Shown here piece by piece: positions 192 through 61,714 of a DNA stretch of 64,000 bases. Below the pieces are notes generated by a model. The model saw only the letters and a program-made list of their open reading frames with translations, did no database searches and was not told the DNA's origin. This DNA is from Prosopocoilus inquinatus (Eukaryota > Arthropoda > Insecta > Coleoptera > Lucanidae), in NCBI GenBank assembly GCA_036172665.1, contig CM069872.1, forward strand, positions 50,454,101 to 50,518,100. Reading direction: 5' to 3'. The translations under genes and the position numbers were made by a program. How positions within the stretch are numbered: the stretch's first letter is position 1; each line of letters begins with the position of its first letter.

Positions 192-3100
192 GTAAGAAAA
201 TTAATTCTTTTTCTTTTCGTTTCATTTCACTTTTTCAATGGAAAATTCAGACAAATGTTCTATTCGTTTAAAGCAAGTATAAATCGTATAATATGCAGAA
301 ATATAATTTGATATACATTTAACTTTCAGAACGTATTAATAAAAATTGAAAAAAAAAAAAAAATAAATCGTTTGGAAATCCTTCGATTAATATAGTATGC
401 GAGGAGGTCATAACCACACAAGAATAGATTTAAAAAATGTGAATCAAGAAGAGTTATTCTGCTCTTCTGATAAAACTGCATCATCCTGTATTACACCAAC
501 AATTAGTTATTCTGCTCTTCTAATAAAACTGCATCATCCAGTATTATACTGAGTTAAGAAATTTAAATACCTAAATATAAGTTTATAATACCCCGATTTT
601 TTTTATTTATTCTACTAATTACTTTAGAGAATTAAGTACTTTATTATTATTTTTTTTGTAAAGAAAAGAAAGAAGAAGAAAAAGCTGCACTCAAGTAAAC
701 TGCATGAAAATGTAATCACATAAAGACTCGATTTTTTTAAAATTTAATTAAACCAGACTCGTATACACGTAACAGGTATCTTATAAGAACGACGTTTTAT
801 TTTTTATTTTATTTTCCTTTCCGTATTAATACGAAAACTATTATAAGTGGGAACGTTTTTTTATTGCAAAATGCAAATCATTAGATTCTACAATTCTGTT
901 TTACTTAAACTATATTATAAAATTCCAATAAACTATAATAATTGCTTAAACAGCGACATCCTACGATCGCTTTTTGACCACCTAACATTGCATTAGGAAC
1001 TCTCGGGCTACGCTTCTGCTGATGAAGCCCCGAATAGGGCTGAAACAGCTGTACAGAGACTGCTCGAGGGATTCATTGGCAACAAACATCTTATAAGGCC
1101 CGATCTTTCCAGCTCCATATAAATTTATCTCCTAGATAAGATACTACGAAACTATTATCGACACAATGGTTTCCAAGGATATTACCTAGCAGATAATTTT
1201 ATTAGGAGGTGGAAAGACTGGGCCTAAGAACGAGGTTTTATTTTTTCTATTTTCCTTTTCGTGTTAATTCGAAAACTATTATAAGTAGGAAAGTTTTTTT
1301 ATTGCAAAATGCAAATCATTATGCTTTACAATTCTGTTTTACTTGAACTACATTATAAAATTCCAGTAAACTATAATAATTGTTTAAACAGCGACATCCT
1401 ACGATCGTTTCTTGACCACCTAGCATTGCCTTAGGAACTCTCGAGCTACGCTTCTGCTGATGAAACCCCGAATATGGCTGAAACAGCTGTACAGAGACCG
1501 CTCGAGGGACTCACTGGCAACAGGCATCTTATAAGGCCCGATCTTTCCAGCTTCAGATAAATTTATCTCCTAGGTAAGATCCAACGAAACTATTATCGAC
1601 ACAATGGTTTCCAAGGATATTACCTAGCAGATTATTTTATTACGAGGTGGAAAGACTGGGCCTAAGAACGAGGTTTTATTTTTTCTATTTTCCTTTTCGT
1701 GTTAATTCGAAACTATTATAAGTAGGAACGTTTTTTTATTGCAAATTGCAAATCATTAGATTCTACAATTCTGTTTTACTTAAACTATATTATAAAATTC
1801 TAATAAACTATAATAATTGTTTAAACAGCGACATCCTACGATCGTTTCTTGACCACCTAGCATTGCCTTAGGAACTCTCGGGCTACGCTTCTGCTGATGA
1901 AGCCTCGAATAGGGCTGAAACAGCTGTACAGAGACCGCTCGAGGGGTTCACTGGCAACAGGCATCTTATAAGGCCCGATCTTTCCAGCTCCAGATAAATT
2001 TATCTATCTAATATCCTAGGAAAATATTATCTACATAATGGTTTCCAAGGATATTACCTAGCAGATACTTTAATTAATTAATTAAACTAATATTGAAACG
2101 ATATTTTAAACAAAATACACTGTGAACAACAATGCTAGGTAGAACAATATTTTATTACATGCATGGGAAAATTTATAATGACTATAAATAAGTTTGCTTT
2201 CAAACATTTTGCATCAGAATCTCACTTTTTTATTATCTTATAAAATAATTAATAGTTAATTCATTTCATAATCGAACTAAAAGAGATTTTAAAATAAAAG
2301 TCACAATCTCATGTAGAAATAATTACGTTTTCGCATCGTTTTTGACATATGACTGTGACTTTTATTTTAAAGTCTCCTTTAGTTCGATTATGAAATCGGG
2401 CCTAATTCGGTTTAATAAATTGGAAATTGACATGTTTTGGCAAATGCAATAAAGAAGGTTATTATTATTATTATTTAATTTTTTTGATCTAGCAAATTTA
2501 TGTTAAAAAAAAATTCTTCTGTTATCCAACGAAACAGAAAATATTAAATATTTTATCTTACTTAGGTAATGTGTATTCAGTGTCGCCGATTGAGTACCAT
2601 AAACGGGGTGTGTGGTGGGGGGGGGGCGAGCATTTGCTATTATAAAGGGGGTGGACTATAAATAAAAAGTGTACTGTCGCGAGCAACAAACTTCAGTCGC
2701 AATTGAATCTCAAAGATTCGTACCTGACTTATACTTAATTAAAAATAAAGAAGTTTAATGTCTTCCTTTTGAATACTAAAAGATCTGGGTAGGGGGTAAT
2801 TGGCCCCCATGGGCCCCCAAACCGCTGCCACTGTGTGTACTAATACAAAGTAAGCAATTTAGGGCACATCATGGACATAATTAAATTATTTTGGCAATCA
2901 ACAATTAAGTACATAGTTGTTAATATTGGTCCTTACAATTAAAATTAATCAATTAATTAATTAACTGCAACTGGGAGTTTCTATGATTCTATGATCATTT
3001 AATTGCGAACTAACGGTTAATTTTAAAGGTAGTTTCCGTTTTTGAACCATTTTTTAACAGCATGTAGTTTGATTAAATACATATAACTACAATCACCAAT

Positions 3101-6100
3101 TAATAATTAAATAATAGCAATTATTTAATTAGTTAATTGTAATTGTGAGTTTCTACGACTACAATTAACTGTCTTAATTAACAAAAGAAAGTCCTTGTTA
3201 AGCAGGAATTGTGTTTTCTTTTTCATAAAATGAAAAGCTTCTTGAAAAATGCAAATGCCAGATTTTTTTTTATGGAATTTGGCAACGCCCTCTACTTTTA
3301 TGTACGAAACAAAAGAATCTCGGAAATTGGCGATCTCGGCGAACGGGGATTCCCATCCCTACTTTCAAAGATTTTTTTCTTTATTTGGCAACTCGTCTGA
3401 ATTGAATCGTGTCAACCTGGCTTAAGTATATTTTTGTGAAAAAAAAGTGTAGGTACACTAACACTCAAAAGTACACGATGGCAATTACATGTACGCCTGA
3501 TTTTTTTCACCTCCTGATAGATTTATCTGCCAGGTAACTTCCTCAGAAACTATTATCGATACAATGGTTTCCAAGGCAGATAAATTTATTAGGAGGTGAA
3601 AAAATCGGGCCCTACTATGGAATTGAGGACGACCTGTTGATTCAATCATAAAAATAATGTAACACCTATGATTTTGCAGAAGCTTGGCAACGTAGCTTGA
3701 ATTTTCCTTTTCGCAAAACAAAGAAGATTTGCACATTTTCAAATTATTCTTTTTTTGAAATTTGGCTATGCGTCTGAATTTTTTCATAAAACAAAATAAT
3801 CGCGGAAATAGAAACTTCCACTGTATTTTTAAAGATTTTTCTGAAATTTGGCAACACTCTTAAAAAACAAAGGAATCTCCAAAAATAGTGATTTGCGATC
3901 TGCATTTTGAAGAACTTTATTTTACAGAACGAAACCATTTCGATTTCGATTTGTACGCAATTCTCAAATTTTTCCTGAAACTTGGCATTGCGCTTTTCTT
4001 TTTGTCACAAGATAAAAGGACGCGGGGATTCTGATTTGGAAATTCCAGTAATTTTTCTGAAATTTGGCAATGTGGTTTGAAGGATTTCCGCAAAACAAAA
4101 AAGGATCTCTGGGGGAACGGTATTTTAGAAAAGGCTGTGTTGCCAGATTTAATAAAAAATCCAGGAAATTGGGATTTCATCCTCAAACAATTCGATCACA
4201 AAAATAATAAATAATCCGCATTTGTGTTTTCCAAGAACTTATTTTACGAAATGAAAAAAATGTGAATTTCGATTTGAAAATTCCAAAAATTTTCCTGAAA
4301 CTTGGCATTGCGTTTTTCTTTTTCACAAAATGAAATTATGTCAGGATTTTGATTTGGAAATTCCAGTGATCTTTCTTCTGAAACTTGGCAATGCGGTTTG
4401 AATGATTTTCACAAAACAAAAAAGGATCTCTGAGGGGAATGGTATTTCAGAAAAGCTATGTTGCCAGATTTAATAAAAAAATCCACATCATCGTGAAACA
4501 ATTGAATCACAAAAATAATAAATAATCCGCATTTGTGCTTTCTAAAAGCTTTATTTCACAAAATAAAAAAAAAATGTGAATTTCGATTTGTAAATTCCAA
4601 AAATTTTCCTGAAACTTGGCATTCCGCTTTTCTTTTTCACAAGATGAAAGGTCGGGATGATTTTGATTTGGAAATTCCAGTGATCTTTCTTCTGAAACTT
4701 GGCAATGCGGTTTGAATGATTTCCGCAAAACAAAAAAGGATCTCTGAAGGGAATGGTATTTCAGAAAAGGCTATGTTGCCAGATTTAATAAAAACAATCC
4801 AGTTCATCGTGAAATAATTGAATCACTAAAATAATAAATAATTCGCATTTATGTTTTCTAAAAGCTTTATTTTACAAAATAAAAAAATGTGAATTTCGAT
4901 TTGTAAATTCCAAAAAATTTCCTGAAACTTGGCATTGCGCTTTTCTTTTTCACAAAATGAAAGTATGTGAGGATTTTGATTTGAAAATTTCAGTAATCTT
5001 TCTTCTGAAACTTGGTAATGCGATTTGAATGGTTTTGGCAAAACAAAACGGGAATATCGGGGAGGAATGGTATTTAAAAAAAAGCTATGTTGCCAGATTT
5101 AACAAAAAAAATCAGGAAATTGGGATTTCCCTCCGAAATAATTCAATCGTAAAAATAATAATAAATAATCCGTATTTGTCGAGATCTTTTCATTTTGTAA
5201 AAATGGCAGCCTGTTTTACGTCTGGCTCGGCTTTTACTTTGATCGAAGTGACCTCGTTTCCGCCGTTTACTTTCACGTTGTTCGCGTATGTCACTTCCAG
5301 GACGGACGGTGGAATTGAAGATTATTTCTGATTCCAGGGACATTTTTACACACAATTGAATTTTCAAACAAATAGAATTTTCTTGGGTTTAAATTACAAC
5401 ATAACACAGATTTTGATATTTTTCCTCCATATCTAAAGAATTGAGATAGGCAAAACAGTAAATAGTGTACTTTTTTTAATCTGGTGTCGAAGTTGGCTGT
5501 GAAAGTTTAATTGTGAACCATCATCAAAATAATAGTTGTCAATTTGACATTTGAAATTATCACTACGTCATACCTAACCTAGCTTTTCGAGTTCAAATCA
5601 GTGTATCGAGAAATCGTTGGCGAAATTTTTCCAAACGACCTTGACTCCATCACCAAAATTTTTTGTACTTGCGAGAAAGCCATTTCATTCGAAAAAACTA
5701 TTTTTATTTCAAAACTCAAGGCAATTGACAAATGTCAGATGTTTCAAAAATTGTTTTGTGTTCACGATAAACACACTACCGCCAACAAATGTTGTCAACT
5801 ATTGCTAAACTTTTTACTTCAAATCCTTTATAAAAATACACTAGACTTTCACCAGATCCATTTTCCAGAAGATATTTAAACACCAGATATGTCTGAAATG
5901 TAGCCCAAATGGGGGAATTTTGCCCAATCTGGCAACCCTAGCGTAGTTCGACTTGGAAGTCAAGCCGCTCGCCAGACTATTTTCAAAAGGATTTGGGAAT
6001 AAAAGCAAATTAAAAATATTTTTGTCACTTTTTTTAATAAACAAACCACTCGACTCTCTTTTGACGACGTCAAAATATGTAACCCCGATGGCTGTTTATA

Positions 6101-9100
6101 AGATAACCAAACCAAATTGACGTTTGTTTGAAACTATTCTTCTGCGTCTGCCAATGTCAGCAACTGTCACACAACAAATAGAATTTTTCTGTGTTTAAAT
6201 TACAACTTAATTTGACAGATTTCGATGTTTTTCTTCCATGTCTGTAAATCAGAATAAGAAAAATAGTAAATAGTGTACTTTTTTTTTAATCTGGTGTCGA
6301 AGTTGGCTGTGAAAATTCAGTTGTGAATTATCATCAAAATAACAGTTGTCAGTTTGACATTTGAAATTATCACTACATCAGACCTAACCTTGCTTTTCGA
6401 GTTCAATTCAGCGAATCGAGAAATTGATGGCGAAATTCTTCAAAACGACTTTGACTCCAACACGAAATTTTTTTATTCTTGCGAAGAAGTCGTTTCATTC
6501 GAAAAAGAAAGACTATTTTTATTTCAAAACAATTCAAAGCAATTGACACATGTCAGATATTTGAAAAATTGTGTTGCGTTCACAATAAACACATCACCGC
6601 CAACAAGTGCTGCCAACTATTTATAAACTTTTTACTCCAAATCCTTTATAGAAATACACTAAACTTTCACCAGATCTATTGTCCAGAAGCGTACTGTGAC
6701 TTATAATCACAGAAAAAAAAGTCTCTAATAAAAAAAACAGTTTGAATTTGACGCCATAGTTTAGAGTGCATTTCACGTTTTGAATGTGACTACGACATGC
6801 TACGATCAAATAATATTGTTTGTTGATTAAATTTCGTCAATTTTGAGTTTGAAAAAGTAAATGCTAGTGACAGAACCGGTTGTTGCCAACGTAATGACAA
6901 TCTAATGCGGCGCGGCCGGTATATTCAAATTTCCTCAGTTATTAAAAATCACACTGTACACGACCTACACATTTCTTCAATTTCTTTAGTGTTTTCCTAT
7001 TTCGATCGAACCAGAACCAGAACTTCGCTTTTTTATAAGAAATGTAATTAACAGAAAGAAAAAAAGAAACTAACAATACTGCAAAATTTCTTCGTCTGAA
7101 AATCACTAGAATTTGCACCAATTGTCATATAGACGCATTAAAATTTACACCATACACCAAAAGCTTTATTTTTATCACCAAGTGGTTGTTAAATACACTG
7201 GATCCACCAAGTTGGCAACACTGCCGCCAAAGTTACGTCACGTCGTCTGAAAATCACCAGAATTTGCACCAAATGTCATATAAACTCATCAGAATTTATA
7301 CCATACGCCAAAAGCTTTATTTTTATCACCAAGTGGTTGTTAAATCTACTAGATGTGGTGTAAATTCCATCAAGTTGGCAACACTGCCGCCAACTTCGAC
7401 ACCAAATTTACGTCACGTCGGCTAAAAATCACTAGAATTTGCACCAAATGTCATATAAGCGCATCAGAATTAACACCATACACCAAAAGCTTTATTTTTT
7501 TCACCAAGTGGTTGTTAAATACACTAGATCTGGTATAAAAGCCACCAAGTTGGCAACACTGCCGCCAACTTCGACGCCAAACTTACGTCACGTGTCCCGT
7601 GTAAGACATTTTGGCGCACCGGTCTGTTCAGAAACGTTTTTTTTTCTTTAAATTGAATTGTATTGTTTTTGATTCACATAGAGAGTGTAATTGTCATAAA
7701 CTTGAAATGGAGGGCGAAAGTCTTTAGAAACTTTTGTTTTCAAAAAGGTCGTTCGATGCTTAAACAAGATTGGGAATCCCTGGATTTTACTAAAACAGAA
7801 AGCAAATGAAAACAAAATAAAACAAACAACAAAAAATAACGTAAACAGGTGCTTCAAAATGAATGCAATGAATGATTAAGGACCTAATGTAAAAACTGAA
7901 CATTCCAGGCACATCTATAAAAACAAATGAGGAAAATTTGAATCAACACAGCTAAGCAAATAGAATAAATCTGGAATTCACTGTTTGTCTTGCGCTCCTC
8001 ATATTTATTGTCCGTATTTAGTTAGCAGAAAAGGCCAACTATTGATAAACTTTTTACACCAAATCCTTTATAAAAATACACTAGAATTTCACCAGATAGA
8101 TTTTTCAGAAGCACACTGTGACTTAACAGGTGCTTTCTTTCGCTCACAAAGTCGTGATCCAAACGTGTTTTGATTCAAAAACAGACATCCTTTTCTTTGA
8201 ATCTCTCTATTTTTAAAACTTGTTTGGATTGAATTATGGTTATTTACAATTGAACTGTCAATAAAAACATTCAAGTCAGGTGTTTTTTTTGCAACAACTA
8301 CGAAACTCAGGTCCAAACTATTCGAAACACGGTTCAAACTTTTAAGCGAAAGAAAGCACAGAAAAAGAGAGCTTTTAATTACAAAAAACAGTTTGAATTT
8401 GGCGCCATGGTATAAAGTGCACTTCACTTTTCGAATGTGACTACGACATGCTATCATCAAAGAATTGTTGTTGACTAAATTTCGTCAATTTTGAGTTTGA
8501 AAAAAGTAAAGGCCCGTGACAGAACCGGTAAGCGTAACCAACGTAATGACAATCTAATGCGGCGGCGGTAAATTCAAATTACCTCAGTTATAAGAAATCA
8601 CACTGGACACGACCTACACATTTCTGGACTTTCTTGTTGTGTGAGGAAAGATTTCTTACCTCAAACGAATGTTCATTTCTTGAATGAAAAATGAATTCGA
8701 GTTAAAACATGAAGTTCGTTTGTTTTCGCAAAAATCAGCAACCAACAGATGGCGCTTTCGATAACGTTATTTAACTATCATTCATTTTAACCTCTGTTCT
8801 ATTGGATCCGTTAAAGTTTTTGTTGGTTTTATTATAATTGTGTGGCAAATTATGCCAAGAGTGAGCAAGCGTCACACATAAATTACTCAATTTAATATTT
8901 TTTTGTAGGTTAACCAAATGTCACTCCAATGCTTTCCTTATTGTAGGGGTCCTTCACAAAACTTCCCCTAGATGTCAGTCACTACTGATGTCTTCAAGCG
9001 AGAATTTGCAAATTTCTTTTTATATTTAGTATGCTCAGTTAACAGTTTCTCGAGCAAAGTTGTTTTTTTCTTGTTTTGGCCTTTGGAAATTGGGTTGTTA

Positions 9101-12100
9101 AGGGGTTCCCCGCTTGGGGGCCGAAAGTCTCAAAGACTTTTGTTTCTTTTGTTATACCGGGGCGCTCAAATTTTTCGCCGTGGAAATACGCGTTTGGAAA
9201 CATGCAATTTCCTTTTTCGCCGAAACAACCAACCATGCGCCGGCCGTAAATTTAGCATTGCGACCATTTGTGTTTTCTGTGCTTATTTTTACGACTTCTA
9301 AACATGCGAGCCCCGTACAATTATTCTCGCGCAGCGTGTATTATAAATTATGCGCGTGCATAAACACGCTAATTGTGCTCGATTATTTTGAAATGTCGAA
9401 GGCATTACGTTTGATATGTTGACGTAATAAAGCCCGTGTTAAAATAATACGTAAACGTTTCTCCGTCAACGATTCTATGTAAATCCCCGGTATTAACACA
9501 ACACACCACACTCCGACCTTTTCTGCTAACTAAATACGGGCAATAAATATGAGGAGCGCAAGACAAACAGTGAATTCCAGATTTATTCTATTTGCTTAGC
9601 TGTGTTGATTCAAATTTTCCTCATTTGTTTTTATAGATGTGCCTGGAATGTTCAGTTTTTACATTAGGTCCTTAATCATTCATTGCATTCATTTTGAAGC
9701 ACCTGTTTACGTTATTTTTTGTTGTTTGTTTTATTTTGTTTTCATTTGCTTTCTGTTTTAGTAAAATCCAGGGATTCCCAATCTTGTTTAAGCATCGAAC
9801 GACCTTTTCGAAAACAAAAGTTTCTAAAGACTTTCGCCCTCCATTTCAAGTTTATGACAATTACACTCTCTATGTGAATCGAAAACAATACAATTCAATT
9901 TAAAGAAAAAAAACGTTTCTGAACAGACCGGTGCGCCAAAATGTCTTACACGGGACACGTGACGTAAGTTAGCGTCGAAGTTGGCGGCAGTGTTGCCAAC
10001 TTGGTGGCTTTTATACCAGATCTAGTGTATTTAACAACCACTTGGTGAAAAAAATAAAGCTTTTGGTGTATGGTGTTAATTTTGATGCGCTTATATGACA
10101 TTTGGTGCAAATTCCAGTGATTTTTAGCCGACGTGACGTAAATTTGGTGTCGAAGTTGGCGGCAGTGTTGCCAACTTGATGGAATTTACACCACATCTAG
10201 TAGATTTAACAACCACTTGGTGATAAAAATAAAGCTTTTGGCGTATGGTATAAATTCTGATGCGTTTATATGACATTTGGTGCAAATTCTGGTGATTTTC
10301 AGACGACGTGACGTAACTTTGGCGTCGAAGTTGGCGGCAGTGTTGCCAACTTGGTGGATCCAGTGTATTTAACAACCACTTGGTGATAAAAATAAAGCTT
10401 TTGGTGTATGGTGTAAATTCTGATGCGTCTATATGACAATTGGTGCAAATTCTAGTGATTTTCAGACGAAAAAATTCTGCAGCATTGTTAGTTTCTTTTT
10501 TTCTTTCCGTTAATTACATTTCTTATAAATAAAGCGAAGTTCTGGTTCTGGTTCGGTCGAAATAGGAAAACACTAAAGAAATTGAAGAAATGTGTAGGTC
10601 GTGTACAGTGTGATTTTTAATAACTGAGGAAATTTGAATATACCGGCCGCGCCGCATTAGATTGTCATTACGTTGGCAACAACCGGTTCTGTCACTAGCA
10701 TTTACTTTTTTCAAACTCAAAATTGACGAAATTTAATCAACAAACAATATTATTTGATCGTAGCATGTCGTAGTCACATTCAAAACGTGAAATGCACTCT
10801 AAACTATGGCGTCAAATTCAAACTGTTTTTTTTTTATTAGACACTTTCTTTTTCTGTGATTATAAGTCACAGTACGCTTCTGGACAATAGATCTGGTGAA
10901 AGTTTAGTGTATTTCTATAAAGGATTTGGAGTAAAAAGTTTATAAATAGTTGGCAGCACTTGTCGGCGGTGATGTGTTTATCGTGAACGTAACACAGTTT
11001 TTGAAACATCTGACATCTGTCAATTGCCTTGAGTTTTGTAATAAAAACAGTCTTTCTCTTTCGAATGAATCGAATGAAACGACTTCTTCGCAAGAACAAA
11101 AAAATTTCGTGTTGGAGTCAAAGCCGTTTTGATGAATTTCGCCATCAATTTCTCGATTCGCTGAATTGAACTCGAAAAGCAAGGTTAGGTCTGATGTAGT
11201 GATAATTTCATATGTCAAACTGACAACTATTATTTTGATGATAATTCACAACTGAACTTTCACAGCCAACTTCGACACCAGATTAAAAAAAAGTACACCA
11301 TTTACTATTTTTCTTATTCTGATTTACAGATATGGAAGAAAAACCTCGAAATCTGTCAAATTAAGTTGTAATTTAAACACAGAAAAATTCTATTTGTTGT
11401 GTGACAGTTGCTGACATTGGCAGACGCAGAAGAATAGTTTCAAACAAACGTCAATTTGGTTTGGTTATCTTATAAACAGCCATCGGGGTTACATATTTTG
11501 ACGTCATCAAAAGAGAACTAAGTGGTTTTTTCTTTTATTAAAAAGTGACAAAAATATTTTTCATTCGCTTTTATTGCCAAATTATTTTGAAAATAATCTG
11601 GCGAGCGTTCCGACTTCCAAGTCGATTTACGCCAGGGTTGCCAAATTGGACGAAATTCCGCCATTTGTGCTATATTTGGCGTTTAAATATCTTATTTGGC
11701 GCCTGGCGCCTGATTGGGGCTCCTTTCATTGCTATCTTCACCTAACGGACACTCGGCTACCTATTATATGACGCGAATACTTTGTGTATTGTTTTCTTTT
11801 GTTTTTTTGTTAATTTCTCTTTTTTTTTATTTTAAAGTGTTGATGTTTGGCATTTTATTGACGATTCGTTTGTTTTATTTTTGGTTCGTTTGTTTCCTGC
11901 CGGTTTCTTGATTCGCAAAAGTTTATGGCCGTTTTTTCATCTAGTATTTGTTTTGTCTATCCGTTCTTCTTTTGTTTCTCCCCCCCCCCTGCCTGTTTTT
12001 CGCATTTTTCTTCTTTTTAATCCAAGTGGTTTTCTTATTTTGTTGAACGACTCCTTTTTATATTTATTTTGTTTCCTACGCGTTTGTTTTTTTTTGCAAA

Positions 12101-15100
12101 ATTTTCGCTTGCGATTTTCATTTGTTTTGCCCATCTTAGTATGCCTTTCTCTCTTTACGATCTCGTATTTCTCTTTCGTTTATTTTTACCAAATTGATTT
12201 TTCGTATTTTGTTGACTGATAAACTGACGCTTTTTTTACGGTTGTGTTTTGTTTTCTGCTAGTTTTTTCGTCTAGAGATTCATTTGTTTTGGTTCGCTTA
12301 AGCGCCGGTATTTCAGTCATTGATTAACTTTAAGCTTCACTTTATTCCCACGTCTACAATAATTATTAAGCCAATTGTTTCTATGGGAATAAATCAAAGC
12401 TTGAAGTTAATCTGCGACTAAGAGCCAGTTGCGCCAAATATTTAAGCCTAGCTTAACTTTAAGCGCCGCTTAGAATGTGAGTTACGTAACCTCAAATATC
12501 TAATTATAAACAATACTTAAATTTAAGCTCGGTTTAAATGTTTTTGCAACTGGCCCTGAGGCCCGATTTTTTTCACCTCCCTGATATATTTATCTGCCAG
12601 GTATTATCCTTGGAAATCATTGTATCGATAATAGTTTCCGGGGAAATTACTTGGCAGTTAAATTTATCAGGAGGTGAAAAATTGGGTCTTGGTTATCAAA
12701 TTTCTTTTGTTTTTTCTGTTCTTTATGCTTTCATACAATGGATTGTCATATTGGTTTTTCGCATTTTATCGGCGCTTCTTCGTAGTTCATCGTTTTTCAT
12801 TTGTTTTGTGTCCACCACAGCTGTGATCTTTTGTTTTACGCACTGCATTTCGTCGTTTGTTTTTTCTTATAGTTTGATTTATTTTGATTCGTCCGAAAAA
12901 CTGTTGCTTTATCGTTCGGCTCGCTGTTATCGATCTTCTTTTGTTTTTCTTTTTCGCTTTGCGCCTCGTATTTCGTCGCTGTTTCTTTCATTTCTCGTTT
13001 GTTTCTGATTTCTTTGCAAGTTAATTTTTTCGATTTTTTATGGTTTCTGATATTCTAAATCGGCGAGTTTTTATTTGCCCTTTTTTATTCCTTCGGTATT
13101 TATTTAGTTTGTTTTATTATTGCGTAAAATTTACATTTTTTTTTTATTTAAGGCCCCTAATATTTCAAATGATGTGGTACAATTAATCAATGTTTTTTTT
13201 TACACTTCGAAGTTGTTTGTTGTAACACGTTTCGCTTTATTTTTCAAGAAAAATCTGGCAACCCTGATCTACAGAAACGCTTTATAATATCAGTAGAGAA
13301 TAGAGCATCAATAGAGTACGTCATTCATATGATGACGTCGAAATATGTGATTCCGATCACTCCTTATAAACTACAAGCAAATATTAAAAATATTAATTTG
13401 GAGGTTATCTTTTAATTTGTACGTGCTGTATTCACTTAAGCGAATTGGAAGGGAAAACGCGCGCTAATAATAAAAAGAAGAAAACAAAAGAAACTTGGTC
13501 AATTCCGGGCAGCTACCAATGACAAAGCTCGTTTTTAGCGCCAAAATTTCAAAGTACGCCTTCGAAATAAAAAACACAGTATACATACAAGTTTCTTTTG
13601 TTTTCTTTTTATTATTATCGAGCGTTTTCCCTTCCAATTCGCCTAAATGAATACAGCACCTCAAATTAAAAGGTAACCTCCAAATTAATATTTGCTTGTA
13701 GTTTATAAGAAAATACAGGGTGTTAAAAAAATTCGTGAACCTGTGTGTACATATTAATTCTGAGTAAACGATATGATATGATAATATTATGTATTACTGT
13801 CAAGTGTAATTCGAAGGATACGTATTTAATATTTAACTGTAGGAAAATATTTCATTCGTCGAATAGTCGGTGTAAAGAAGGGTCGTTGACACGAGGGTAA
13901 ATCTAACTGATAATTACCCACGCGTGCTTCCCTCGCACGGCTCGGGAGTAAATCCTTATACTTACCAGGATACAAATAATACAAATGCTGCCACCACACC
14001 GCCGCCACCCGTCCCAAATAAGTATCAGTGTGTAGTACTAATAACCGCAAGTCTATTAAAAACTCGTAAGAACCTCGGGATACCGACGCAGCTGTCACGT
14101 GCCGATAATTTATTCGAGGTTTCCACCCTTTTGTGCGCTCCCTCGCATTTCTTCCCCCGATTACGCAAACAACGGGGTCTCAACGCGAAACCCGAATCCG
14201 CACGCTTTAGACTTATGCTCGTCGGATTGCAGGTCGACGGTGATATATCATTGTCGCCACCTGTATCAAGGAAAATAAGAATTTCAAGTTGAAGAATTTC
14301 ATTTTTCACGTTCTGTTTATTTACGTAAGGCCTTCGTAACCGATTGTATATCACGTGACCGTGATAGTCAGGCAACCAAGAATGAGTCGATGAAGGATTT
14401 TATGAAGTTTTTCCGACTGTTAGGTAATCGGTTTTGTAAGATGTATGTCACGTGGGATACAAGATTAAATGAAGACACGATATTAGTTTAGATTTAAAAA
14501 AATATTTGATTGCAGTGAATCCCTGAATCCTCTGCACAGCTATTTCGGCCCTATTTTGTCAATTATAATGCAAAGCCAGGAACACCCTGTATATTGTTTG
14601 CTGAGATGAAAAACTATATTTTCCTGATTTCAAAAGTATATTATACGTTAACATTTGGTGGGACTGTTCATCATGTATTTAAGTTTAAAATCTCAGCATA
14701 ATGACGTTTAAAAAAGTCAAGACGGCCTGGAAAGGTGCTTACAAAACTTCTAAATGGCTGTTTCAGGTAGCAAAAAACAACAGAAATTCGAATACACAAT
14801 TAATTAATAATAAAAAACAGAACAGAAATCAGGAAAATATGATGTTTCATCTTGGCAAACAGTATACAGGCTGTTTCATTAAAAAAAAAAACAAATTTAT
14901 ATTTTTTTCTCCAATTTGCGATGCGCTTTTGTTTCTTATGATAACTCTAAAAGATAGTACGATTAAAACCCTACAACTTTCGCGTTTAAAGTTTTTCTCT
15001 AGCTCCTAAAATAAACCCTCTAGATAAGGTGCAAAATATAAAAAAACCCTGTACACATAGTGTCTTCAGAAATAGTTGACAGTCACGTAACTGGCAGTTA

Positions 15101-32789: not shown

Positions 32790-33010
32790 TTCAATTTTGA
32801 TTTTAATAAAATTAAAAATGAAAGGCGAGTTGAAAATTGTGATGAATGAAAACTTTATCTCGCTTGACACCAGATGGCGCTACATATTTACAGAATTCGA
32901 AAACCTTTCAAAATACTGAAGAAAATCTGAGAAAAAGAATTCATTTGACCGTAAAGTAGAAAGATTTTAGAAAAATTTTGTGCAAATCGTTTTTGATTGC
33001 AGTGAGAACC

Positions 33011-33075
33011 TCGAGCAGCCTCTGGACAGCTGTTTCAGCCCTGCTTGGGGCTTCTTCAGCAGAAACGTAGCTCGA
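33011..33075 (-). ncRNA. Hammerhead ribozyme motif, GUC cleavage site (type I)
   Basis: On the minus strand: core CTGAAGA (33059-33053; base 7 of the core is variable in the family), stem II AGCCC/GGGCT, GAAA 33036-33033. Stem III is two pairs around AGCT, followed by GTC with the predicted cut between 33025 and 33024. Stem I has seven pairs near the core (two G-U). A perfect six-pair outer helix TCGAGC/GCTCGA follows, separated by a small internal loop. This is the best preserved copy in the window and has the optimal cleavage triplet. It is not in a tandem array. Confidence 0.82.
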
Positions 33076-33140
33076 CATTCCCACTGCAGACCAAAAACGA
33101 CTTGCCCAGTTTATTCGCAAATGCGATGTAAGAATGATGA

Positions 33141-33316
33141 ACATATAAAATAGCGACATCTTACTATAGCTTTTTGACCTAACATTGCAGTAAGATAGAC
33201 AAATTGAAGCGGGATTTGCATGGGGGACTCATTAGGAGCAAATCCCGCTTCAATTTGTCTATCCTACTGCAATGTTAGGTCAAAAAGCGATAGTAAGATG
33301 TCGCTATTTTATATGT
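33141..33316. repeat. Hairpin with 79-bp arms (two mismatches), 18-bp spacer
   Basis: Arms 33141-33219 and 33238-33316. The arms contain 'tagcgacatcttactatagc', 'tttttgacctaacattgca' and 'gaagcgggatttgc'. The first part corresponds to the leader segment of the hammerhead tandem units (compare 952-994), so this hairpin derives from the same family as the neighbouring minus-strand hammerhead. Confidence 0.85.
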
Positions 33317-33712
33317 AAAGTAGAAAGTATTTAAAATTAAAAAAAAAATTTTAGAGGAAATTTATTAATCTGTCATTCATTTTATACTTTATATTTCTCT
33401 TTGTTTATTTTTATCTAATTGATTTTTTCACATTTTGTTGGTTGACGCTTTTTTTACAGTTGTCTTTTGTTTTCTATTAGTTTTTTTTCTGTCTGGAGAT
33501 TCATTTGTTTTTAGTTCATTCATCTAAGCAGTCGATCTTCTTTTGTTTTTTACAGTTCTTCCTGCTTTTGAAAGATGTATTTCACTTTTGTTTTTGACTC
33601 CTTTTTACAGCGTTTTCTTTTTATTTGCGAAATCTTTCAACGATTTTTATTTTCTTGGTCATCTTAGTATCGTTTACTACTTCTATTTTCTTTTTTAAAT
33701 TCGTTTTAGCAC

Positions 33713-34623: not shown

Positions 34624-35021
34624 ATTCGTTTCTTTGAATCTCTCTATATTTTTATTGTTATTGTTTGGATTGAATTATGGTTGTTTACAAATCAACTGTC
34701 AATCAAAAATTCAAGTCAGGTGTTTTGTTGCAACAACTACGAAATTCGAAACACGATTCAAACTTTTAAGCGAAAGAAAGCACCTTTTATGAAAAGAAAA
34801 ATGGCGCCTTTTGGCTATATTTTGTCAACAAGTTGGCGATATTGCCTGCAAAAAAATCTGACAACCCTGATTGGCTACCGCCTCGTTCACATAAACATTT
34901 TTTTTAAAGAACTAATTAATAACATAACCAAGCCATGGTTGGCATTACCCTTTACCATTAAAACCTAGTGAAAAAAAATGTGTTTTTCACCTTGACGGCA
35001 ACAGAAAGTTCCTCGTGAGAA

Positions 35022-35957
35022 ATGTATTCGTTATGGTTGTACATTACGTACATTTTCCGACCCATAATCAAATGGTTCTTGCGGAAAACGACTGGACTTT
35101 GTGAACTGCAACGCATTTGCTATGGGGAAACAAGCGGTGCTCCGAGAATAAAAGCCGTGGAAAGATCCTTGAATCTATCGCGTTCCCCGCAAATAAAACA
35201 GCTAGTGATTAATTTAAACAGTTTAAGTGATAACAGGCGGATGACCGGGGCGAACGAACGCGAGATCTTGCGCGGAGCAGTTAACACGGTCTTGCTGGTC
35301 AAGCAAATAAATCCCAAGATTCATTTTCAGTTTGTGAGGAGCTTTGGGAAGTGCGTGGAACAGATTTGGGGCTACCGCCAGTTGGTGGCTGAAGTTGAGG
35401 TCCTCAGGAGGATACGGTACGATGCCGATAATATCGAGCACGAGCAAAAGCTATACGAATTATGGGAGACGCTAATGCCGAATGAACCTCTGGAATCAAG
35501 GATTACGAAGCAGTGGCAAGACATCGGGTTCCAAGGTGATGACCCGAGAACCGACTTTCGAGGCATGGGGTTGTTGGGATTAGAAAATCTGCTGTTCTTT
35601 GCAACCGAGTACAAAGGGGCTGCGTTACACGTGCTTGCCCATTCGCATCATCCAGTGTACGGGTATGCCTTTGCTATAGTCGGAATTAACTTGACTTCAA
35701 TGGCTTGGAACTTATTGAAAAGCGGCGAAGCCAAAACTTACGTCTATAATGTCTCGAAGAGCCTGCCCAACATACATCTGTTCCATCAGTTTTATAGTTA
35801 CTTGTTCTACGAGTTTGATCGTTACTGGATTGAATGCAAGCCTAAAAATATCATGGAGTTTTCAAACATCCGGGAGCGATTCGAAGATAACGTCAAACTT
35901 AGCTTACAAGATCCAGCCTCGGTTTTTCGAATTAATATATCGGTCGATACCGTTTAG
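35022..35957 (+). CDS. ELMOD2: ELMO domain-containing protein 2
   Basis: Single-exon 311-aa protein. ATG 35022 follows an in-frame TGA two codons upstream. N-terminus WLRKTTGLCELQRI-like (FLRKTTGLCELQRICYG) matches ELMOD1/2. The ELMO domain covers about residues 125-290, with the family signature KQWQDIGFQGDDPRTDFRGMG split as 'KQWQDIGFQGDD' and 'PRTDFRGMGLLGLENL', then 'YGYAFAIVGINLT' and 'FHQFYSYLFYEFDRYW'. ELMOD proteins act as GTPase-activating proteins for Arl2 and Arf-family GTPases through a conserved Arg in this signature; that Arg is present. Intronless, unlike vertebrate ELMOD2, which may indicate intron loss or retroposition. ELMOD1 versus ELMOD2 is not fully separable by eye. Confidence 0.93.
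   Translation: MYSLWLYITYIFRPIIKWFLRKTTGLCELQRICYGETSGAPRIKAVERSLNLSRSPQIKQLVINLNSLSDNRRMTGANEREILRGAVNTVLLVKQINPKIHFQFVRSFGKCVEQIWGYRQLVAEVEVLRRIRYDADNIEHEQKLYELWETLMPNEPLESRITKQWQDIGFQGDDPRTDFRGMGLLGLENLLFFATEYKGAALHVLAHSHHPVYGYAFAIVGINLTSMAWNLLKSGEAKTYVYNVSKSLPNIHLFHQFYSYLFYEFDRYWIECKPKNIMEFSNIRERFEDNVKLSLQDPASVFRINISVDTV

Positions 35958-46884: not shown

Positions 46885-61714
<14,830 letters not shown>

Follow-up and report, generated by a model that had tools for sequence, protein, structure and literature searches.

A hammerhead ribozyme array, most likely of local origin, and dispersed hammerhead elements with Penelope-like insertion scars in the beetle Prosopocoilus inquinatus

The window analyzed in this study, a 64,000-nt stretch of the Prosopocoilus inquinatus genome (contig CM069872.1 of assembly GCA_036172665.1), contains a tandem array at 784-2076 on the plus strand, whose units carry type I hammerhead ribozymes with dispersed relatives in the same genome. 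We favor, with a probability of about 0.7, a reading in two layers, in which the array arose by local duplication, and the hammerhead family consists of non-autonomous elements inserting by a process of the Penelope-like element (PLE) type. For the array itself, the likeliest origin is the tandem duplication, in place, of host DNA holding a hammerhead element and a MITE; the retrozyme insertion that had been proposed by a reading of the window from sequence alone (the sequence-only reading) is improbable. All genomic evidence comes from a single assembly.

Tandem Repeats Finder describes the array with a period of 438, 3.0 copies, and 92% matches, in agreement with the three head-to-tail units of about 438 bp noted earlier. 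The array junctions are marked by ATCTTATAAG, which starts at positions 778, 1088, 1526, and 1963. Since the first junction lacks the MITE, the junctions are 310, 438, and 437 bp apart, and the final unit is truncated; the units are not uniform, the first junction lying at 778-793. The unit is composed of three unrelated parts, that is, an AT-rich segment (788-944, 1228-1383, and 1666-1820), a hammerhead element (945-1086 on the plus strand in unit 1, with ends seen in other copies), and a palindromic MITE (1097-1224, 1535-1662, and a truncated copy, 1972-2076, at the array end). The identity between units is 93-95% in the AT-rich segment, 92-96% in the element, and 89-95% in the MITE, so that divergence is similar across the parts.

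The MITE has the terminal inverted repeat GGCCC..GGGCC and TAA on both sides (1094-1096 and 1225-1227 in unit 1), and from these two features we take it to be Tourist-like. The junction ATCTTATAAGAACG at 778-793 (plus strand) reads ATCTTA-TAA-GAACG without the MITE, and represents an empty site matching the TAA-MITE-TAA of the later units. Both MITE ends were located by a script in 14 of 26 copies, and ten of these 14 are flanked, by eye, by equal 3-bp duplications (TAA or TTA). Tourist-like (PIF/Harbinger) MITEs likewise have the terminal repeat GGCCC..GGGCC and a TWA duplication, whereas the MITE considered here is captured within a tandem unit. The same MITE is also present at 3504-3611 and 12559-12690 of the window, with further copies genome-wide.

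A genome search for the unit had been suggested as a check, and it separated the parts of the unit: the hammerhead part is dispersed, whereas the AT-rich part is confined to the array. For the latter, a DNA search of the 650-Mb beetle genome with one 159-nt query gave three matches, all of them in the array. Because this search skips very common words, the uniqueness was rechecked with one 34-nt pattern allowing up to three mismatches, which has three matches genome-wide, every one inside the array. Thus the same unit was not found at several loci, its AT-rich part, by these two probes, being present at one locus only. The hammerhead part (945-1086) has at least 42 matches in the genome, three of which are the array itself (40 scored of 3,346 first-look candidates).

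Dispersed relatives of the array element, referred to below as family A, were sampled at 27 loci outside the array (L034-L060). In their alignment homology to the array usually ends at fixed positions, the 3' end being different or missing in L042, L043, L049, L056, and L059. Both probes of the duplication test matched 26 loci, and 25 were tested after L049, a duplicate of L043, had been dropped. Flanking direct repeats with a score of at least 8 were found in 16 of the 25 loci, compared to 2.2 expected from swapped flanks, and those with a score of at least 10 in eight loci, compared to 0.44 expected. Given the flanking duplications and the fixed ends, family A copies are interpreted as solo insertions of about 165 bp. 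Since the hammerhead part of the array shares the family A ends, we interpret the array as a stretch of host DNA that had received a single insertion of this kind and was duplicated later. The window also contains, at 50988-51054 on the plus strand, a decayed hammerhead element, to which the family model assigns 49.4 bits.

The hammerhead parts described in the sequence-only reading were all recovered in the array: the CTGATGA cores at 1019, 1457, and 1894, GAAA, a self-complementary stem III formed by the palindrome ACAGCTGT, GTA, and a bipartite stem I. The predicted cuts, after 1053, 1491, and 1928, are indeed 438 and 437 nt apart. The expectation of a complete hammerhead in every unit failed, since the type I hammerhead is intact in two units of three. 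Hammerheads 1 (1000-1070; 94.4 bits with a family model built partly from this very copy) and 3 (1875-1945; 88.0 bits) are intact, whereas hammerhead 2 (1438-1508; 86.2 bits), all three on the plus strand, has a stem II of AACCC and TGGCT with A.C and C.T mismatches and only three of five pairs. A structural descriptor requiring CTGANGA, GAAA, and UH, together with 4 bp at the base of stem II, a stem III that is paired or palindromic, and 4 bp in stem I, found three sites in the whole window, at 1019 and 1894 on the plus strand and at 33059 on the minus strand, and is failed by the copy at 1457. As only three matches arose when the whole window was dinucleotide-shuffled 300 times, about 0.01 per window, an accidental origin of the motif was rejected. 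Judged from sequence, the motifs of the array are genuine type I hammerheads.

The Rfam covariance search, proposed earlier as a check, detected no hammerhead in the whole window at the gathering threshold, and below it the array has only a match to HH9 (15.7 bits, E 1.7). Among six dispersed relatives, two reach Hammerhead_1, with 21.2 and 20.7 bits against a gathering score of 34. With zero matches at the gathering level, Rfam was not retained as the arbiter. RNA folding had been proposed as well. For single motifs, the hammerhead fold is never the optimum (-23.6 against -29.6, -13.6 against -24.0, and -21.2 against -29.7 kcal/mol), whereas predicted double hammerheads of the intact copies, formed via ACAGCUGU, come within 2-2.5 kcal/mol of it: -59.5 against -61.5 kcal/mol for copy 1 with itself and -57.1 against -59.6 kcal/mol for copies 1 and 3. 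Double hammerheads involving copy 2 are predicted at -49.5 against -54.1 and -47.1 against -54.8 kcal/mol, and the 33-kb copy with itself at -47.4 against -56.0 kcal/mol, a gap of 8.6. The array could possibly release unit-length circles, for which the predicted folds are 63% paired (438-nt unit) and 62% paired (437-nt unit).

Conservation of the ribozyme core was assessed in 59 distinct copies, obtained from 70 motif hits in 52 of 53 sources, with identical sequences, L049, and L064 excluded; the hits were selected by similarity, allowing up to 20 substitutions. Within the core, free variation is confined to N7 (T27 A22 C9 G1) and H17 (A42 C13 G2 T2; n=59), and all other positions are conserved in 56-59 of the 59 copies. 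N7 and H17 are the hammerhead core positions that tolerate change. Since the copies are related and were chosen by similarity, this conservation is supportive and not independent. In the covariation test, 90.4% of the cells were paired, compared to 88.9% in shuffles, with five pairs showing double changes (3.4 in shuffles) in 23 cells (12.4 in shuffles). As 19 of these 23 cells fall in the outermost pair, compensatory change is at the subfamily level. The covariation signal, comprising five pairs, is weak, and it was rejected as a proof of the ribozyme.

The second population of hammerhead elements, family B, is represented in the window by a retrozyme-type insertion at 32964-33314 on the minus strand (L064). 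It consists of an inverted arm without a hammerhead and a hammerhead-bearing arm, the two outward ends being site 1 and site 2, and is flanked by a 13-bp target-site duplication, GTAAAGTAGAAAG (33315-33327, plus strand, the other copy at 32951-32963), well over 4 bp in length. Its intact type I hammerhead (33008-33078, minus strand) has the core CTGAAGA, the cut triplet GTC, and a score of 96.2 bits with the family model. This hammerhead at 33,059, better than those of the array, is absent from the sequence-only reading. The window copy itself is not a direct tandem.

A DNA search started from the 33,059 hammerhead scored 25 candidates and gave at least 26 matches including the window, with loci 79-99% identical; this search skips common words, hence 25 candidates compared to thousands in a pattern search. 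For instance, L072 contains three direct units spaced by 311 bp, and L066 contains two units at a 312-bp spacing together with 304-nt arms that are 99% complementary. Genome-wide, 7,197 + 7,174 = 14,371 exact cores were counted, with none in the reversed-pattern control. The pattern represents one exact core form with a fixed stem II and a partly fixed loop II, and therefore leaves out the array copies (loop CGAATA). At a spacing of about 312 nt, 1,578 + 1,740 = 3,318 exact tandem junctions were counted, again with none in the control. These thousands of junctions identify a retrozyme-type population by layout; in this sense family B is retrozyme-like, and the proposal that the genome contains retrozyme-type elements is borne out. 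Among the matches listed, 12 consecutive exact junctions with a 312-nt spacing, corresponding to at least 13 units, are seen at C1:13287530-13291268. By eye, families A and B have the same pair of ends, the 5' end of family A being an inverted site 2. The MITE-less 310-bp unit of the array was considered as a homolog of the family-B unit and rejected, the common part being, by eye, the element only.

The hammerhead elements have a characteristic style of insertion. Among the first 100 listed exact cores, all on C1, there are 22 pairs of neighbors closer than 1 kb (chance alone would give 1.6 close pairs, whatever their orientation), 17 of them head-to-head, none tail-to-tail, and five on the same strand, with spacings of 311, 312, 312, 312, and 624 bp. 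The fetched loci together with the window contain seven head-to-head, no tail-to-tail, and eight same-strand pairs, two of the latter being the array. Duplications around whole composites were analyzed in 27 loci, namely the 25 family-B matches, L047, and L048. With a score of at least 9 they are present in nine loci, compared to 0.36 expected, and no clear duplication was found in the remaining 18, including the three-unit tandem L072. In seven of the nine duplication-flanked elements one end is site 1 (GATTTGCACAAAATTTTT) and the other is site 2 (GATGTCGCTATTTTATATGTT), and in L077 and L084 the script recognized one end only. Both features expected of a PLE derivative, head-to-head copies in one duplication and two different outward ends, are therefore present in the samples.

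The PLEs of the same genome were characterized through their GIY-YIG domains, of which 150 were scored among 2,232 first-look candidates, all over the cut-off, with open frames of up to 788 aa; 130 of the 150 share the identical score of 33.4 bits. Among these copies, neighbors closer than 12 kb form 47 head-to-head, one same-strand, and no tail-to-tail pairs. Each of the seven shortest-spaced pairs is surrounded by a single duplication of 11-14 bp, and in 42 control trials with swapped flanks no value above 9 was obtained. By eye, each of these pairs has one end (a), CTCACTATTTA, and one end (b), GCTTTGTGATTA. One additional PLE has a 13-bp duplication. We consider the GIY-YIG PLE family to be probably young.

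The two classes nonetheless differ in some respects. Direct tandems are more common in the hammerhead elements (5 of 22 close pairs) than in the PLEs (1 of 48), and the hammerhead elements differ in having a bipartite stem I. No sequence similarity was found between them and the fetched PLE stretches L090, L091, and L099-L101, which represent two PLE types, and the family model scores at most 9 bits on L090, L091, L092, and L099-L101. A PLE carrying the array-type hammerhead was sought, and these six stretches contain none. Four of them (L090, L091, L099, and L101) have, by eye, a minimal hammerhead of their own, CTGAAGA..GAAATACGTATT, and no hammerhead is visible in the 601 bases of L100. Given the lack of common sequence and the more frequent direct tandems, we describe the hammerhead elements as working like PLEs and not as members of them. 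At 48613-48799 of the window, two minimal hammerhead-like motifs of the PLE type (CTGAAGATGGCAGCATAGCTGCCGAAATACGTA on the plus strand) form an inverted pair inside a 91-nt inverted repeat, with the minus-strand motif on the left and the plus-strand motif on the right.

The layout of described PLEs is similar. In PMC3846280, head-to-head is the arrangement most often seen, with an optional tail at one end, and duplications are of 8-10 bp in several described copies and missing in others, compared to 11-14 bp in the PLEs of the beetle genome; its authors favor self-priming. According to PMC11167929, a PLE protein cleaves both strands of the DNA and, starting at an internal position, extends them. 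With the PLEs of these two reports, which have hammerhead-bearing pseudo-LTRs, the beetle elements have in common the head-to-head arrangement, short duplications, the tail at one end, the hammerhead near an end, and the palindromic stem III.

Metazoan non-LTR retrozymes are the other relevant system. In the report of Cervera and de la Pena 2020 (PMC7229834), insects are named among the hosts without detail, and the mobility of animal retrozymes is left open, PLEs being proposed on the basis of shared hammerheads, tandem copies, and co-existence. As these retrozymes are presented there, family B fits them well, with a type I hammerhead, short low-GC tandem units that are presumably LTR-less, and co-occurrence with PLEs. 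Compared to the same description, many beetle copies are solo or head-to-head within one duplication and with two fixed outward ends, and the window array, although short in unit (438 bp) and low in GC (35-37%), is single-locus and contains a MITE. The open-licence literature, covered at the level of titles and abstract openings, offered nothing on beetle hammerhead elements or head-to-head retrozymes.

On this basis we suggest the following scenario. A solo family A element would have inserted into unique AT-rich host DNA, a Tourist-like MITE would later have entered a neighboring TAA, and AT-rich DNA, hammerhead element, and MITE would then have been duplicated together head to tail, yielding the array. 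A transcript of the array could cut itself at sites 1 and 3, presumably better as double hammerheads via ACAGCUGU. The hammerhead family, comprising family A, which is solo, and family B, whose tandem unit measures about 312 nt, would be non-autonomous. Its hammerheads would be expected to self-cleave and to give rise to circular RNA, and the elements presumably use the machinery of PLEs, with the PLE protein as the catalyst by analogy. Target-primed reverse transcription that starts on both sides of a staggered cut, or alternatively self-priming, would join two copies head to head. A single target-site duplication of about 9-13 bp would enclose the joined copies, whose outward-facing 3' ends would differ between the two sides. 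If self-cut RNAs were copied starting at both edges of the same staggered cut, the head-to-head, two-ended insertions would be explained. It is rather probable, in our opinion, that the approximately 14,000 beetle hammerhead elements, including the tandem retrozymes with their unit of about 312 nt, live as parasites on the Penelope-like machinery.

For the array, a different history can be considered, in which it is an old degenerate retrozyme: a circle of about 310 nt was reverse transcribed to a tandem, the MITE was gained later, and other copies of the lineage were lost. The location of the hammerheads in tandem units, the GC content, the length of the MITE-less unit (310 bp, near the 312 nt of family B), and a 10-bp direct repeat flanking the array, TTAATTAAAC, are all consistent with such a history. 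This repeat, however, is AT-rich, and 46 of 1,980 random pairs are equally good, a chance level of about 2%; the left (5') edge of the array is no more like a hammerhead cleavage product than chance, as 113-281 of 2,000 shuffles align equally well, so that setting of this edge by a cut was rejected. Moreover, the AT-rich part is found at a single locus, and the match to other copies breaks off where solo elements usually end. Together with the separate insertion of the MITE and the damage to the middle ribozyme, these observations speak against the array as a retrozyme locus, and we find the old-retrozyme history doubtful. That the likeness to hammerheads is accidental, or marks a dead relic without catalytic use, would agree with the broken copy 2, the weak Rfam scores, and a free-energy optimum that differs from the hammerhead fold; it is nevertheless very improbable in view of the 14,371 exact cores, the restriction of free variation to two permissive core positions, the expectation of 0.01 descriptor matches per window, and the near-optimal double hammerheads of the intact copies (the gap of the 33-kb copy being wider).

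As to the mobility of the hammerhead elements, they might be moved by a LINE-type retrotransposon, with head-to-head copies produced by LINE twin priming or template switching. Short target-site duplications also occur with LINEs, one end of L077 runs into eight A, and none of the PLE stretches fetched shares sequence with the hammerhead elements. Yet close pairs include no tail-to-tail arrangement in either the hammerhead elements or the PLEs, both classes show a single duplication enclosing the composite, together with two distinct ends at fixed positions, the ends of the duplication-flanked family-B elements have no consistent poly-A tail, and the genome contains an abundant PLE family, all of which makes the LINE vehicle unlikely. 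We therefore retain the two-layer reading of local duplication and PLE-type insertion. The PLE-like insertion scars support the published proposal that PLEs mobilize animal retrozymes (PMC7229834), and, if correct, our reading would provide genomic evidence both for this proposal and for two-sided PLE integration. Since the hammerhead elements and the PLEs are found in one assembly, in thousands of copies and with matching scars, the proposal is testable, by counting and by the existing in vitro assay of a PLE protein (PMC11167929). At the same time, the array indicates that plain duplication can yield a hammerhead tandem repeat, which is a warning for motif-based retrozyme surveys.

Another insect sequence of this kind is pDo500 of Dolichopoda cave crickets, reportedly a satellite DNA with a hammerhead; the window array differs from it in being a single locus of three units. 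The insect host assumed in the sequence-only reading is confirmed by an ELMO-domain open frame at 35019-35954, which by protein similarity points to a beetle. Its identity to database proteins reaches 80%, and its first ten named matches are nine beetles at 72-78% and, as the tenth, a wasp (Cotesia) at 54%. A foldback MITE-like sequence at 2263-2396 (57-nt arms, 88% complementary) resembles, by eye, the one at 50602-50678 (24-nt arms, 83%). Finally, 175-bp tandem repeats were observed at 7227-7593 and 9957-10469, 2.4 kb apart, and in their stop-to-stop frames closely similar strings are encoded on opposite strands.
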